A DNA stretch of 46,078 nucleotides from Patescibacteria group bacterium (GTDB lineage Bacteria > Patescibacteriota > Patescibacteriia > Patescibacteriales > JAQTRU01). The position numbers were made by a program, and so were the translations under genes. Numbering within the stretch: the first letter of the stretch is position 1; each line of letters starts with the position of its first letter. This document shows positions 3,300-38,191 of the stretch, one piece after another. The stretch spans positions 1 to 46,078 of the forward strand of contig JAQUPG010000013.1 in assembly GCA_028716725.1 (NCBI GenBank), given 5' to 3'. The notes below the pieces were generated by a model. It ran no database searches. It was not told where the DNA came from and was given only the letters and a program-made list of their open reading frames with translations.

Positions 3300-3318
3300 G
3301 GGAATAATCAAATAATTT

Positions 3319-3391
3319 ACCGCAGACAGCAGGCGAAGGATAAGACCTGCCGAGGTAAGAAGCCAATTTTTTGGTTTTTCATGTCTGTGGT
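3319..3391 (+). ncRNA. Ribosomal protein L10 leader
   Basis: ACCGCAGACA...TGTCTGTGGT closing stem and GCAGG...CCTGC internal stem with 'ccgaggtaagaag', located directly upstream of rplJ. Confidence 0.8.
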
Positions 3392-3410
3392 TAAAACACA
3401 GATTTTTTAT
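3384..3410 (+). terminator. Candidate attenuator overlapping the L10 leader
   Basis: TCTGTG-gttaaaa-CACAGA-TTTTTTATTT; 5' arm shared with the closing stem of the leader. Confidence 0.55.
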
Positions 3411-3458
3411 TTACTATGAATTAACTAATTATTATTTTGTCCTGAATGGAGCAAAAAT

Positions 3459-3506: not shown

Positions 3507-4031
3507 ATGCCAAAAAGCAGAGAACAAAAAAAGGAAATTTTAAGAGATTTGGCGGAAAAGGTGAAAAAAGCCAAATCCGTTGTTTTTGCCAAGTTCGACG
3601 GCCTGGGAGTCAAGGAAAATGAAAATCTTAGAAATAAGCTAAAAGAAGAAGGAAACGAATATTACGTAGCCAAAAAAACCTTGCTTGACTTAGCTTTTAA
3701 AGAAAAGGGGATTAAAGATTTAAATATAAGAAATCTTGAAGGGAAGGTGGCGGCGATTTTCGGCTATGAGGACGAAGTGGCGCCGGCTAAAATCACGGGT
3801 GAGTTTAAAAAAGGGACGCCGGACAAAATTAGCTTTATCGGCGGAATCTTGGAAAATAAATTTATTTCCGCGGAAACGGTAGAGACCCTATCTAATCTGC
3901 CGGGCAAGCAGGAATTATACGCTAAGATGGTCGGATCAATGAAAGCGCCTGTTAGCGGTTTCGTCCATGTCCTTTCCGGCAATCTGCGCGGTTTAGTCTG
4001 CGCCTTAAAGGCGATTGGTGAGAAAAAATAA
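3507..4031 (+). CDS. rplJ: 50S ribosomal protein L10
   Basis: 174 aa; 'MPKSREQKKEILRDLAEKVKKAKSVVFAKFDGL'; followed by rplL. Confidence 0.95.
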   Translation: MPKSREQKKEILRDLAEKVKKAKSVVFAKFDGLGVKENENLRNKLKEEGNEYYVAKKTLLDLAFKEKGIKDLNIRNLEGKVAAIFGYEDEVAPAKITGEFKKGTPDKISFIGGILENKFISAETVETLSNLPGKQELYAKMVGSMKAPVSGFVHVLSGNLRGLVCALKAIGEKK

Positions 4032-4637: not shown

Positions 4638-5453
4638 CTAATTAGAGACTTGTAAATCCTTATCGATAACACAAGCTAAGCAAAATTGTTTTCCGAGAGT
4701 AGTTAACGAAATCTCTTTTCTATTAAAACTTAAAGTCCAACCTTCTTTAGCTTCAACCTGCTTTTTAATTGGATCTAGCGCCTTATCCGATTCTAGCTCC
4801 TCGTATAAACCCTCGGCAACAATATGTACCATTGGAGGAATTTCAAGCAAACCCAATCTACACAAATTATCTAAATAATTTGGTAAGAGCTGCTGATGTT
4901 CACACCCCGCCTTCTTGCCTATATGTGAAAAATTTCTGTACAAAATACGATATCCATCTTTTACATTTGCTCTAACATCAATAAGCGGTTTATCGCCACC
5001 AGTCGTAAAAAATTTTAAAACCCTTGCTTCGTCGGGTGACATGTTTTGAATTATTTGCACAAAGCCAGGATGAGCATTTTGCGCCGTTGCCGAGTCGATA
5101 GAGGTCGCAAGCAAATTAGCATAAAGCTCTCTTAGTGTTTCTTCATGAGCTGCAAATCTTAATGATTCTACGACAGGGCCAGCCACTAAAAGGTTCGGAG
5201 TCACAATTCTTTCTGGAGGAACATTTTTTAACTTATCTGTAAGTTTTGCAGAGAGAAAAACACTTATTTTTTCATAACCCCATACTAAAGCGCTCACGGG
5301 AGCTAATGCGATATTGATTGTTTTAGTTATAGTTTCTAAACCCTTGCCGATTTGCTTAGCGGCAGGTTGAAGTGCATCCTGATAAACGGGCACGGCTTTA
5401 ACTATACCTTCGACTGCTTTTGCAGCTTGTGTAATTTTGTCATCATCACTCAT
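4638..5453 (-). CDS. Abi-alpha / DUF4393-like protein
   Basis: 271 aa; 'PERIVTPNLLVAGPVVESLRFAAHEETLRELYANLLATSID...HPGFVQIIQNMSPDEARVLKFF' is characteristic of DUF4393/Abi-alpha. Confidence 0.8.
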   Translation of the reverse strand: MSDDDKITQAAKAVEGIVKAVPVYQDALQPAAKQIGKGLETITKTINIALAPVSALVWGYEKISVFLSAKLTDKLKNVPPERIVTPNLLVAGPVVESLRFAAHEETLRELYANLLATSIDSATAQNAHPGFVQIIQNMSPDEARVLKFFTTGGDKPLIDVRANVKDGYRILYRNFSHIGKKAGCEHQQLLPNYLDNLCRLGLLEIPPMVHIVAEGLYEELESDKALDPIKKQVEAKEGWTLSFNRKEISLTTLGKQFCLACVIDKDLQVSN

Positions 5454-8874: not shown

Positions 8875-9123
8875 CTTAAGTTAAATATTAATTAATGAAA
8901 AAGCCTATTTTTTTAAGTATTTTTAATAATTTTGGGCAGTCAAACCTGGATAATTAAGAATTATTTAAGTTTGAAGGCCTGAATTTTTTCCGCGAATGCG
9001 GAACTGCCCGTAATCGGAGCAGAATATTAAGGGCCAGTACTTTGACAATTGAAAAAAATAATTAGCCAAGTTGGCTAAAACGTGGCTAGAGCCACAGAAC
9101 CTCCAGAGAGGAAGGAGCAACAA

Positions 9124-9897
9124 ATGTTAAGGACAATCACAGTACTCGTCGTCGCAGCCGTGATTATTTTCTCGGCGCCCTGCTTTGCGCAGGGGATAGT
9201 GGCAGCAGGAGATTCTGCTTTTGCCGCTCTTGCAGCCTTACAAGAAGATGCCCAGGTGATAAAAAAATCAACCGCTCGTATTGAGCAGGATATTCAGGGG
9301 TTGAAAGATACCCAGGTCGAAACGCAGAAAAAACTCGGCCAGATTGAAAAGTCCGGCCAGGAGAGTCTGCGTAAAGTCGAGGAGAAGATCAACGACTCCA
9401 AAACCGAAATCCAGAAAAATTTGAGCCAGGCGCTCGGAGACAGCCTGCGCAGAGTTAAGGAAAACCTTGGTCGCGAGATTAAGGATTCCGAAACCAAAAC
9501 GCAGGAAAAGCTCGGCGAAATTAGCGGTGGCGTGAAAAAGATTTTTTATCTGATAATCGCGCTCGCCATTGTTTCCGTTCTGGTGATCGTCGTTATTTCG
9601 GTGCAGAAGCGCCGGGACAAAAATATCTGGTTAACCGTCGAAGTCGAAATTGGCAGTGAAAAAAAGACTTTTAAGGTCCTTACCGGATATTCCCCCCGCA
9701 CTGGAGTTTATACTTCTCCGTTCACAACATCTGGAGAGAAAAACGGAAAGAGGGGAGCGATAGACAGAAACACTGAAGACGCTATGGTCAAACATTACAG
9801 GAGTGCTATAAAAAAAGCTTTGGAAAATCCGAAATCAGATTTCGCAGTTCAAATGAAAACCCTTCTTAGGGGAGGAAAGATTAAAGAAATCAGGTGA
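9124..9897 (+). CDS. Secreted/membrane coiled-coil protein
   Basis: ATG at 9124 with GAGAGGAAGGAG RBS; signal peptide 'MLRTITVLVVAAVIIFSAPCFAQ', heptad-rich 'IEQDIQGLKDTQVETQKKLGQIEKSGQESLRKVEEKI', then TM 'IFYLIIALAIVSVLVIVVISV'. Confidence 0.7.
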   Translation: MLRTITVLVVAAVIIFSAPCFAQGIVAAGDSAFAALAALQEDAQVIKKSTARIEQDIQGLKDTQVETQKKLGQIEKSGQESLRKVEEKINDSKTEIQKNLSQALGDSLRRVKENLGREIKDSETKTQEKLGEISGGVKKIFYLIIALAIVSVLVIVVISVQKRRDKNIWLTVEVEIGSEKKTFKVLTGYSPRTGVYTSPFTTSGEKNGKRGAIDRNTEDAMVKHYRSAIKKALENPKSDFAVQMKTLLRGGKIKEIR

Positions 9898-9946
9898 TTT
9901 CTTTGGAAGCAAATCTGTAAAATCGACATACAAACAATCACTCGGG

Positions 9947-9974
9947 AAGGGGTTGGTCAGAAAGCCAGCCCCTT
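9947..9974 (+). other. Intercistronic hairpin
   Basis: AAGGGGTTGG-tcagaaag-CCAGCCCCTT, 10 bp including one G.U. Confidence 0.6.
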
Positions 9975-9997
9975 CAAAATCCGAAAGGAGTAGCATC

Positions 9998-11425
9998 ATG
10001 AAGAAGTATGGAATTCCCATCGCGATATTGGTCCTCGCGGCCATTGTCGTTGGTATTCTTTACGGCCCCGATTTTTTCAAGAGTTCGGCTGCCGAGATCG
10101 CCGAGCTTGAAGTCGCGGGTCAGAAAGGCGAGATATCGCAGGCGACAAACGAAGTTGGTGTCACCGTGCCTTACGGCACAGACTTGACTGCGGTGAATCC
10201 GACTATAACGGTATCTCCCAAAGCAAGTATTTCCCCGGCTTCCGGCAAAAAAGTTAACTTATCCAACGGGTCGGTAACCTATAAGGTCATAGCCGAGAAT
10301 GGAAAGGTCAAGAGAGACTGGACCGTAACCGTGAATACGGCACCGAACACGGCAACCGAAATTACCGGCTTCAGTTTCCCCGGCATGGAGAAATGGTCTA
10401 CCCAGCCGGACGGGAATACCGTAACAATCAATGCCGTTGCCCAATACGGAACCGACATCAATGACCTGGCCCCAATCTTTGAAATATCCGAAGGGGCGAC
10501 CGTCGAACCGGGCAGGAATACGAAGCATGATTTTTCCAAACCGGTAGTCTATACGGTTACGGCAGAAGACCGGGAAACCGCCCAGGAATGGACGGTAAAA
10601 GTATCCCTGGCCGAACCGAGCAAGAAGATCGAGATCACAGAAGTTATTCTCGGCGGGAAATCGGCTGACATCGATACTACGAAGCATACGGTCCGGGTTC
10701 AAGTCGCGGACGACATCAAACTCGACTCCGTTGCTCTTTCAAAGCTGGAAGGAAACTTCGGGAAAATCGAGCCCGGGTTAAAACCCGGAGATAAACTCGA
10801 TTTCACCAAGGGAGCCAAGACGTATGTCTTCTCCCCCGAAGATACGAAGGTGAAAGCCGCCGAAAAATGGACGTTCATCGCTTATCACCCGGTAGCCGAG
10901 GCGGATTCAGCCGATGTCGCTATCGGAAAGGGTGAAGGCGTGGAACATGCCCTTATCCGCCAAATCAAGGAGAATCCGGTCTATTGGGGTTATACCGGAG
11001 CTTTGACCGATTCCGCTTCTGTAAAGAAGTGGGTCGGCAATGAGGCCCACAAGCTCGCCATTCTGACCGGTTATGTCGGTTCAAAGGCCGATAGTTCAAA
11101 GGCCGGTTGGGAAGTTCGGGTGGCAAAGGTCGGAACGGTTTACGAGTTGGGGAAAGATAACGACGGGAAGACCGTTATCAAAGAATATCCCGACTTCAAA
11201 TCCTACAAAGATTCGAACATCGAACCGATCGAAACCAACGTGGCGGCGCCTTCTTTGAAAGACGCCGTATTCGCCAGTGTTGACAAGGATGTTGCGGGGC
11301 CGCATGTCCAGGGGTATGAATATATCTTTACGCCCTCAACTTGCGCGCCTCCTTGTTCGCCCAAAATCATACCGGTTTCCTTCAACGATCTGCCCGACAT
11401 GCCGATTTTCCCGGCGGATGAATGA
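9998..11425 (+). CDS. Signal-anchored protein with repeated DUF5018-like Ig-fold domains
   Basis: ATG at 9998 with GGAG RBS; repeats ending 'VTYKVIAENGKVKRDWTVTVN', 'VVYTVTAEDRETAQEWTVKVS', 'KTYVFSPEDTKVKAAEKWTFIAY'. Confidence 0.65.
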   Translation: MKKYGIPIAILVLAAIVVGILYGPDFFKSSAAEIAELEVAGQKGEISQATNEVGVTVPYGTDLTAVNPTITVSPKASISPASGKKVNLSNGSVTYKVIAENGKVKRDWTVTVNTAPNTATEITGFSFPGMEKWSTQPDGNTVTINAVAQYGTDINDLAPIFEISEGATVEPGRNTKHDFSKPVVYTVTAEDRETAQEWTVKVSLAEPSKKIEITEVILGGKSADIDTTKHTVRVQVADDIKLDSVALSKLEGNFGKIEPGLKPGDKLDFTKGAKTYVFSPEDTKVKAAEKWTFIAYHPVAEADSADVAIGKGEGVEHALIRQIKENPVYWGYTGALTDSASVKKWVGNEAHKLAILTGYVGSKADSSKAGWEVRVAKVGTVYELGKDNDGKTVIKEYPDFKSYKDSNIEPIETNVAAPSLKDAVFASVDKDVAGPHVQGYEYIFTPSTCAPPCSPKIIPVSFNDLPDMPIFPADE

Positions 11426-11475
11426 GAGGCAGACCCTGAAAAACAAGAAAAAACTTCTTATCGACTTTGTCCTTT

Positions 11476-11621
11476 AACAAGATAACTTGCTTCATAACTT
11501 AACGCCACTTTTTTGCCGGCAAAGATCCCTAGAGGGATTTGTTTATTAGTTAGAGCTAATAGACCGCTATTGCGACCAGGTAAAAAAGCAGGATAAGTTA
11601 GAAGAAGCAAAATATCTTGTT
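11476..11621. ncRNA. Candidate structured RNA or inverted-repeat element (unassigned)
   Basis: Nested helices 11476-84/11613-21 (9 bp), 11487-93/11604-10 (7), 11495-501/11594-600 (7), 11508-17/11579-88 (10, one G.U) enclosing hairpins ATCCC-TAGA-GGGAT, TATTAG-TTAGAG-CTAATA and CGC-TATT-GCG. Confidence 0.6.
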
Positions 11622-11713
11622 GGGGAAAGTAAGACCGTTTTTTCTGCAAAAAGGAATAAATTTGATATAGATTGCAACTGACAGAAAATATCAATTCACG
11701 GAGGAAAGAGAAC

Positions 11714-12289
11714 ATGAAGAGAATCACTGCGGTTCTTCTGGCCATTATCGTGGCCGTCACTTTCTCGAGCTTGACCGGCTGCGGAACCAAGCCGCCGGTC
11801 CGGGCGACGAGACCGATCGTTGATAGGCCGGTCGTTCAGAAACCGGTTGTTTCCGAACCGGTTACTCCCGAGCCGAAAGAAAAACCGTCTTTCCGGATCG
11901 AGAGTGTTATAACCGGCGAGCGGAAGGTTATTGTCGCTTTCCCGATAACGGAAGCGGCGATGGAAGATTCCTCGCTCGTGGTATATTCCAGATCCTATAT
12001 CTACGCGGACAATAACTGGAAACCCCAGGAAAGCCCCAGCGGCTACAAGGTCGCCGAGGCCGTCATGGATTATCCGTATATCCGCGGGTACATAATCCTG
12101 CCCTTCGCAAAGTATCTGACCAACAGCGACTGGTATGCGGTAAGGGTCTGGGTGAAAACGGCAGCCGGAACAGGGCTTGCCGTACAGCCCGACAGTCCCT
12201 ACTACCGGGAGAACGAAGCCGGCGTTGGCGGGTATCAGTTCTACGTCAATATGACAACGGGCGAGAATCACCCCGTCAAACGCGAATAG
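11714..12289 (+). CDS. Lipoprotein
   Basis: ATG at 11714 with GGAGGAAAGAG RBS; lipobox 'SSLTGC' followed by a Pro-rich linker 'VDRPVVQKPVVSEPVTPEPKEKP'. Confidence 0.7.
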   Translation: MKRITAVLLAIIVAVTFSSLTGCGTKPPVRATRPIVDRPVVQKPVVSEPVTPEPKEKPSFRIESVITGERKVIVAFPITEAAMEDSSLVVYSRSYIYADNNWKPQESPSGYKVAEAVMDYPYIRGYIILPFAKYLTNSDWYAVRVWVKTAAGTGLAVQPDSPYYRENEAGVGGYQFYVNMTTGENHPVKRE

Positions 12290-12306: not shown

Positions 12307-12354
12307 GAAGCCGTGTGTTGTGTGTTTTATCCACAACCGCGGCTTCTTTTTTTT
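12307..12354 (+). terminator. Intrinsic terminator
   Basis: GAAGCCGTG...CCGCGGCTTCTTTTTTTT. Confidence 0.7.
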
Positions 12355-32615: not shown

Positions 32616-32746
32616 ATTCTACTTCACTTTAGTGAATGTTAATTAAACTCTGACTCCCCGCAATCCTGACGGGGTAAAAAAGTCAGGGGGAATTAATTTA
32701 AATTATATCATTGGATAATAAATTAGTAAATCCTCTTTTGTTATTA

Positions 32747-32832
32747 CGAGGTGGGTTGCCCTCCTTTGAAAGGAGGGGTAGGGGAGGTTGTTTAACCCCC
32801 TTAATTTCTCCCCCCTCGAAGGGGAACTTTTC
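32747..32832. repeat. GGGGAGG/CCTCCCC-type palindromic repeats
   Basis: ccctcctttgaaaggaggggtaggggaggttgtttaacccccttaatttctcccccctcgaagggg. Confidence 0.7.
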
Positions 32833-32858
32833 GAGTTAGAAATAAAAAATCCTCGGCT

Positions 32859-33263
32859 TTATTTGTCCGAGGATTTTATGAAAGAAAAGAAATCCCAGAG
32901 AAGAAGAGAAACTGGGTATTGCCCGAATTTCTTCTTTCCTGATTTATACCACCACATCTGGCAGGGAATAATGGTTAGACCGAGTAAAACTACGATTTCT
33001 GCCAAACCTAAGGCAATCGCCGTGATATTGTGGGTGCTGAAAATAATAAGGCCGACAGCGGCAACCCTTACGGAAACCGCGGTCAAAGCCCCGCGGTAAT
33101 AAGACAGCGACAGGCCCATTGTTTCTCTTGTGCGGTAAATTTTTAAAATTTGGCTGCCATAAGCATGCGACATCAGCAGAAAATAAACTATTGCCGTTAA
33201 TGGTCCCATGGCTCTTGCCTCCTTTTGCGAAAGAACTTTTAGGTTAATACAGGAATATAGCAA
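32859..33263 (-). CDS. Small multi-pass membrane protein (PQ-loop/SemiSWEET-like)
   Basis: Four TM segments; 'GSQILKIYRTRETMGLSLSYY' PQ-loop-like motif; the most plausible start is an internal Met preceded by GGAGG (MGPLTAIVYF, about 3209). Confidence 0.5.
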   Translation of the reverse strand: MLYSCINLKVLSQKEARAMGPLTAIVYFLLMSHAYGSQILKIYRTRETMGLSLSYYRGALTAVSVRVAAVGLIIFSTHNITAIALGLAEIVVLLGLTIIPCQMWWYKSGKKKFGQYPVSLLLWDFFSFIKSSDK

Positions 33264-37490: not shown

Positions 37491-37515
37491 GAGGCGAGTA
37501 ATTCGCCTTTTTTTA
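37491..37515 (+). terminator. rplU terminator
   Basis: AGGCGAGTAATTCGCCTTTTTTT. Confidence 0.8.
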
Positions 37516-37516
37516 T

Positions 37517-37595
37517 TACCTCACCCCGCTCATCCCGCCGCGGGCGGGATTCGCTTCCCCTCTCCTAATTAGGAGAGGGGTTAGGGGTGAGGTAT
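37517..37595. repeat. CCTCACCCC...GGGGTGAGG composite palindrome
   Basis: cctcaccccgctcatcccgccgcgggcgggattcgcttcccctctcctaattaggagaggggttaggggtgagg. Confidence 0.9.
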
Positions 37596-38191
37596 TACAG
37601 TTCGTTTCTGTATTTTAAAGCATTAGCCAGAGTTATCTCGTCCGCATATTCTAAATCCGCGCCGCTGGGCAGGCCCCTGGCTAATTTCGTAATTTTTATT
37701 TTATAAGGCTTTAAAAGTTTTACCAAATACATGGCGGTGGTTTCGCCTTCCACGGTCGGGTTTAAAGCCAGAATTATTTCTTTGATTCCGTCTTTTTCAA
37801 TGCGATTAATAAGCTGTTTTATATTAAGTTGCTCTGGTTTCACTTCTTCGATTGTGTTAATAAGCCCGCCTAAAACATGGTAAAGGCCATTATATTGGCG
37901 AGTGGCTTCAAGAGTAAGCATATCCTGCGTGTTGGCCACAATGCAAATTATGTCCGCCTGGCGCTTTTTATCGGCGCAGATCGGGCAGGGGTTTGATTCG
38001 GCCAGGCTTAAACAACGGGAACAGGTGATAGTCTTTTCCTTAAGTTCGGCAATAAATTGCGCCAGTTTTTGTAATTCCTCGGCCGGCTGCCTTAATAAAT
38101 AAAAAACATACCGCTGGGCGGTTTTCGGGCCAACGGAAGGCAGGCGGGAGAATTGATCTATTAGATTTTGGATAGCTAGAGGAAATTTCAT
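37595..38191 (-). CDS. recR: Recombination protein RecR
   Basis: 'LIDQFSRLPSVGPKTAQRYVFYLL', C4 zinc finger 'CSRCLSLAESNPCPIC', Toprim domain. Confidence 0.96.
   Translation of the reverse strand: MKFPLAIQNLIDQFSRLPSVGPKTAQRYVFYLLRQPAEELQKLAQFIAELKEKTITCSRCLSLAESNPCPICADKKRQADIICIVANTQDMLTLEATRQYNGLYHVLGGLINTIEEVKPEQLNIKQLINRIEKDGIKEIILALNPTVEGETTAMYLVKLLKPYKIKITKLARGLPSGADLEYADEITLANALKYRNEL

Follow-up and report, generated by a model that had tools for sequence, protein, structure and literature searches.

Intercistronic stems processed by RNase III occur around rRNA and in operons of Escherichia coli, and the sponge RNAs CsrB and RsmY are hairpin arrays with GGA loop motifs. The element described here resembles both. 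Like the intercistronic RNase III stems, it is a long, near-continuous duplex that lies between co-directional genes and encloses side hairpins, but it is lineage-specific, has small internal loops and carries a branched tip of near-identical loops. Like CsrB and RsmY, it repeats one loop motif across several hairpins of a single predicted RNA; unlike them, it has no GGA in the loops (UAGA, UAGA and UAUU here, GAUA four times in a sister species), and its hairpins sit on a long closing stem. The dispersed palindromic repeats of this genome (37505–37600) are also inverted-repeat DNA with hairpin tips, but they occur in many copies here and in the sister species, whereas the element does not.

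The element lies in a window of 46,078 nucleotides (contig JAQUPG010000013.1 of assembly GCA_028716725.1, a Patescibacteria group bacterium) and, as originally predicted, between two envelope genes, which encode an exported DUF5018/cadherin-like protein and a lipoprotein. The original prediction placed 33 bp of stacked helices (9 + 7 + 7 + 10) closing three hairpins at positions 11476–11621, and an arm check and folding bear this out. All of the arms, including the 10-bp helix CTTTTTTGCC/GGTAAAAAAG, and the three hairpins were present at those coordinates, and the + strand folded at −56.6 kcal/mol (z −8.9 against dinucleotide shuffles, whose mean was −25.7 kcal/mol with an sd of 3.5; 0 of 200 were as good). 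The mean pairing probability of the named helices was 0.97–1.0. Two details changed. The second hairpin is present but folds as GTTTATTAGT-TAGA-GCTAATAGAC (10 bp, UAGA loop), so that UAGA occupies two of the three tip loops; and the fold does not stop at the predicted limits but extends outward to about 11446–11645 (200 nt; −73.5 kcal/mol, z −8.1), through partly paired stretches to a closing helix AGAAAAAAC/GTTTTTTCT. The extended structure starts 20 nt past the stop codon of the DUF5018-like gene and ends ~69–70 nt before the lipoprotein ATG (Table 1). The opposite strand of 11476–11621 folds well too, as expected of any long palindrome. When the whole window was scanned in 200-base segments with GC correction, the element was among the strongest folds but not the top one: it was equalled or exceeded by a dispersed repeat at 37.5 kb, by tRNA genes and by two further regions.

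Table 1. Features of the element and its surroundings (positions in the window). STB_181 is the sister species.
Feature	Position	Strand	Basis and comparison
Whole structured RNA element	11446..11645	+	Folding and homologue in STB_181
P0 5' arm AGAAAAAAC	11446..11454	+	Pairs with 11637-11645; 8/9 pairs unchanged in STB_181, one C-G to U-G
P0 3' arm GTTTTTTCT	11637..11645	+	Fold and STB_181 comparison
P1 5' arm AACAAGATA	11476..11484	+	Pairs with 11613-11621 (9 bp); in STB_181, outer two pairs broken and one double compensatory change
P1 3' arm TATCTTGTT	11613..11621	+	Fold
P2 5' arm TTGCTTC	11487..11493	+	Pairs with 11604-11610 (7 bp)
P2 3' arm GAAGCAA	11604..11610	+	Fold
P3 5' arm TAACTTA	11495..11501	+	Pairs with 11594-11600 (7 bp); TAGCTTG/CAAGCTA in STB_181 (two double changes)
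P3 3' arm TAAGTTA	11594..11600	+	Fold and STB_181 comparison
P4 5' arm CTTTTTTGCCGG	11508..11519	+	Pairs with 11576-11588; against STB_181, 12 pairs with 4 double changes, 3 one-sided, 0 broken
P4 3' arm CCAGGTAAAAAAG	11576..11588	+	Fold and STB_181 comparison
Tip hairpin P5 AGATCCC-TAGA-GGGATTT	11523..11540	+	Fold; homologous hairpin in STB_181 longer, GATA loop
Tip hairpin P6 GTTTATTAGT-TAGA-GCTAATAGAC	11541..11564	+	Fold; five double changes against STB_181
Tip hairpin P7 CGC-TATT-GCG	11565..11574	+	Fold; CGCC-GATA-GGCG in STB_181
Downstream flank TTGATATAGAT with TGATAT...ATATCA dyad; possible lipoprotein promoter/operator	11662..11694	+	Exact in STB_181
Upstream gene, exported DUF5018/cadherin-like protein (P0002)	9998..11425	+	
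Downstream gene, lipoprotein (P0001)	11714..12289	+	
Ordinary intrinsic terminator GAAGCCG..CGGCTTC-T8 after the lipoprotein gene	12307..12354	+	Kept in STB_181
Leader hairpin GTGGC-TAGA-GCCAC, second gene upstream	9082..9095	+	Loop as in P5 and P6

The element is single-copy in the genome assembly (1.08 Mb, 17 contigs). A homologue search, suggested with the original prediction, returned one covarying, syntenic homologue in the second species of the genus ("Patescibacteria group bacterium STB_181", G001). The blastn match consists of two arms with 76–78% DNA identity and a diverged middle. The gene order is identical (DUF5018-like homologue, element, lipoprotein homologue), and in each species ~20 nt separate the stop codon from the start of the structure. 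The flanking proteins share 45% (DUF5018-like, main match) and about 41% (lipoprotein) of their amino acids with those of STB_181; the arms are therefore far better conserved. The third genome of the genus (G002) has neither the element nor the upstream gene, and its weak lipoprotein relative is without the structure; the element thus seems dispensable.

The STB_181 homologue folds independently at −89.0 kcal/mol and on the same plan, with an outer A/U helix, P1, P2, P3, P4 and then the hairpin junction; the long interrupted helix closes a junction bearing three short hairpins in the window and four in STB_181. Helix by helix, 64 pairs were compared, with the tip alignment guided by both predicted folds: 41 are identical, 12 stay paired through a change in both partners, 8 through a change in only one, and 3 are broken. 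When the 3' letters were re-dealt 20,000 times, the 61 paired were never reached. A trimmed gap-free alignment, hand-cut to the length of the window's copy, had 97.3% of its cells paired with 12 double changes (none of 500 shuffles was as high), and sliding the partners by one to three columns lowered the pairing to at most 52%. For the arms P0–P3, which align unambiguously by sequence, the count is three double changes, three one-sided changes with pairing kept and two broken pairs. These compensatory base pairs, the mark of a conserved structured RNA, were found on two sequences, which limits the covariation statistics. Because the sister species keeps the same fold in the same place by paired mutations, the element is almost certainly a real conserved RNA structure; with two genomes, it is a candidate RNA family rather than an established one.

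Could the conservation instead be that of a DNA palindrome or of a protein? The original prediction also offered a cloverleaf-tipped MITE, and the long inverted repeats would suit one. Dispersed palindromic repeats do occur in this genome: at 37505–37600, CCTCACCCC...GGGGTGAGG with inner hairpins is MITE-like and has many copies here and in STB_181. The element, on the other hand, is single-copy in this genome, STB_181 holds only the ortholog, and it occupies the same site in two diverged species with compensatory changes. Furthermore, the one-sided changes lead to G-U on the + strand in seven cases and to A-C in one, a preference that a DNA palindrome would not show and that favors a + strand RNA. 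The strand bias is also seen in the folding of the STB_181 copy, which is 27 kcal/mol more stable on the + strand than on the − strand (zdiff −4.6 against shuffles); the asymmetry is weak in the window's own copy (zdiff −1.2). No target-site duplication was seen at 11446/11645, and no relative with an empty site was found, the third genome of the genus being also without the upstream gene. A MITE or other DNA palindrome is very improbable, and that part of the original prediction was abandoned. It had further considered that homologues might conserve the coding frame of a 110-aa minus-strand ORF instead of base pairing. The open frame exists, but it is not kept in STB_181, where it is broken into ORFs of 57 and 34 aa without clear similarity; indels between the two elements break the frame, and it has no Pfam match. 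The chance that the region encodes a conserved small protein is negligible. An integron attC site, suggested by the AAC...GTT ends, was rejected because the boxes RYYYAAC...GTTRRRY do not fit (the window's ends, CTTTAAC...GTTGGGG, have one mismatch per box) and STB_181 is without the AAC/GTT pair there.

How widely is the element distributed? Rfam (release 15) gave no match at the gathering threshold for either species, in agreement with the original prediction that no recognized RNA family is matched; at relaxed thresholds, the best sub-threshold matches were at chance level and differed between the two species. A covariance model that includes the tip (R2) found nothing besides STB_181 in 31 relatives or in 381 genomes of the class, and an arms-only model (R1) found STB_181 weakly and in fragments; since the models were built from two sequences and stricter filters applied to the large sets, distant relatives could be missed. 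The R2 match to STB_181 (2.9e-16) is circular, as that sequence trained the model. Among 111 genomes of the order, blastn gave, beyond STB_181, only short matches of ~16–43 bases, which were taken as chance, and an array search for pairs of CCGATAGG returned only the STB_181 element. A DNA pattern scan of GTDB genomes returned the STB_181 contig and an unrelated Nitrosospira match; a protein-based scan of genome contigs found nothing, and viral, phage and plasmid collections gave no match. No comparable structure was found downstream of distant DUF5018-domain homologues. The element is, by these searches, a predicted, uncatalogued and lineage-specific RNA, restricted to the genus, and to two genomes, among those searched.

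Other conserved signals lie upstream of the element. Upstream of the gene ending at 9897, a second conserved leader (8930–9053, +) has 77% identity to STB_181 over 133 aligned bases. It contains a TTTTGGGCAGTCAAAC..GTTTGAAGG hairpin followed by an invariant CTGCCCGTAATCGGAGCAG, and its GGGCAG is able to pair alternatively with CTGCCC, as in switch-like leaders; it has two compensatory pairs and no Rfam match. In the leader of the DUF5018-like gene (9945–9997, +), a hairpin, GGGG.TGG...CCAGCCCC, is conserved and precedes AATCCGAAAGGAGTA; within the latter, the Shine-Dalgarno GGAG shares bases with a second hairpin, UCC-GAAA-GGA, which STB_181 retains. Elsewhere in the window are a ribosomal protein L10 leader (3302–3417, +; Rfam, 57.5 bits), which the + strand ORF 3507–4031 follows, a gene for an Abi_alpha abortive-infection domain protein (4638–5453, −) and a strongly folding intergenic region (32740–32860) that has a relative both at another place in this genome and in STB_181.

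To which transcript does the RNA belong? Its position 69 nt before the lipoprotein start codon, on the same strand and with the synteny kept in STB_181, would suit a cis-regulatory leader of that gene, riboswitch- or attenuator-like. However, the predicted fold leaves the Shine-Dalgarno untouched, distant lipoprotein relatives have no such structure upstream, and, between the structure and the gene, a weak promoter-like TTGATA box within TTGATATAGAT is exactly conserved in STB_181, so that the RNA is perhaps instead part of the transcript of the upstream gene. Nor does the tip behave like an aptamer: its loops and hairpin number are not conserved between the two sequences (the small internal loops are, in part), and the poor conservation of its unpaired bases suits a role in structure or processing better than a ligand pocket. 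We consider a leader function improbable.

For the DUF5018-like gene we saw no separate GC-rich terminator, whereas the lipoprotein gene is followed by one here and in STB_181. The absence of another upstream terminator, together with the TTGATA box, places the element most likely on the 3' side of the upstream message. It might then itself be an oversized intrinsic terminator of that gene, a hairpin ending in the U tract of GTTTTTTCT; this U6 tract is conserved in both species and pairs with an A tract. However, the stem adjoining it is weak and AT-rich, a terminator scan gives no call at 11637, the genome uses ordinary GC stems followed by T8, and 200 nt and a branched tip are more than a terminator requires. 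Such a function is improbable.

The reading that we prefer, tentatively and with a probability of about 0.4, is an intercistronic or 3'-UTR element acting in cis. The element would be transcribed from the upstream gene, its long duplex would either offer an RNase III-type processing site or hold back 3' exonucleases, and the upstream exported protein would thereby be uncoupled from the downstream lipoprotein. The stem has sufficient length for RNase III processing, and an RNase III gene is present in both genomes that carry the element. The third genome counts against this reading in that it has neither the element nor the upstream gene and its RNase III was not found; the search there gave no PF14622 match despite a 97% complete rating, which could be an assembly gap. 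Furthermore, neither an RNase III site nor an exonuclease barrier needs tip hairpins and repeated loops as elaborate as these.

Because processing leaves the tip hairpins and their shared loops unexplained, we keep a second role in view, that of a protein-binding sponge or scaffold RNA, which is possible but on the unlikely side. The tip hairpins would be repeated sites for one RNA-binding protein, with which the loop (UAGA here, GAUA in STB_181) would have co-evolved; such an RNA would work either in trans or jointly with the leader of the second gene upstream. All four STB_181 tip hairpins are capped CC-GAUA-GG and share the 8-mer CCGATAGG, and two of the three hairpins here share UAGA, though the stems differ. 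Three tip hairpins are homologous between the species, and the extra one in STB_181 (AGCTTTCCCGATAGGGTAGCT) resembles the third (AGCTTGACCGATAGGTTAGCT), with a compensatory C-G/A-T difference (CCC-GATA-GGG against ACC-GATA-GGT); hairpins 1 and 3 there thus look duplicated. The tip, compared between the two sequences, is fast-evolving. A sample of ~446 kb of this genome, scanned on both strands, has only two UAGA hairpins with at least 4 pairs and at least 3 G-C, and both belong to this locus and share one strand; a looser setting (stem of at least 5, 2 G-C) gives seven, of which three lie here. The matching leader in STB_181 contains two GAUA hairpins (CATGCCT-GATA-AGGCATG and GCCC-GATA-GGGC), with loops as in its tip. 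This sharing of loops between the element and the upstream leader is suggestive; it was noticed after the fact and on small numbers, which weighs against a binding role. Moreover, GAUA is a stable GNRA loop that also occurs elsewhere in STB_181 in unrelated repeats, the third window hairpin has UAUU, no candidate partner protein has emerged, and hairpins copied locally would produce the same pattern. A wider form of the idea, which we regard as unlikely, is a locus-wide system in which one RNA-binding factor would read one loop shared by the intercistronic RNA and the leader of the second gene upstream, the loop code having switched as a set between the sister species (UAGA against GAUA) and the stems having been kept by compensation.

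Searches of an open-access full-text library on Patescibacteria and the candidate phyla radiation brought up little on structured RNAs. That an envelope-gene locus carries an RNA with comparative support and no database entry indicates that lineage-specific RNA elements persist in such reduced genomes, and its repeated, species-specific loops lend themselves to testing whether an RNA tip can evolve as a set.
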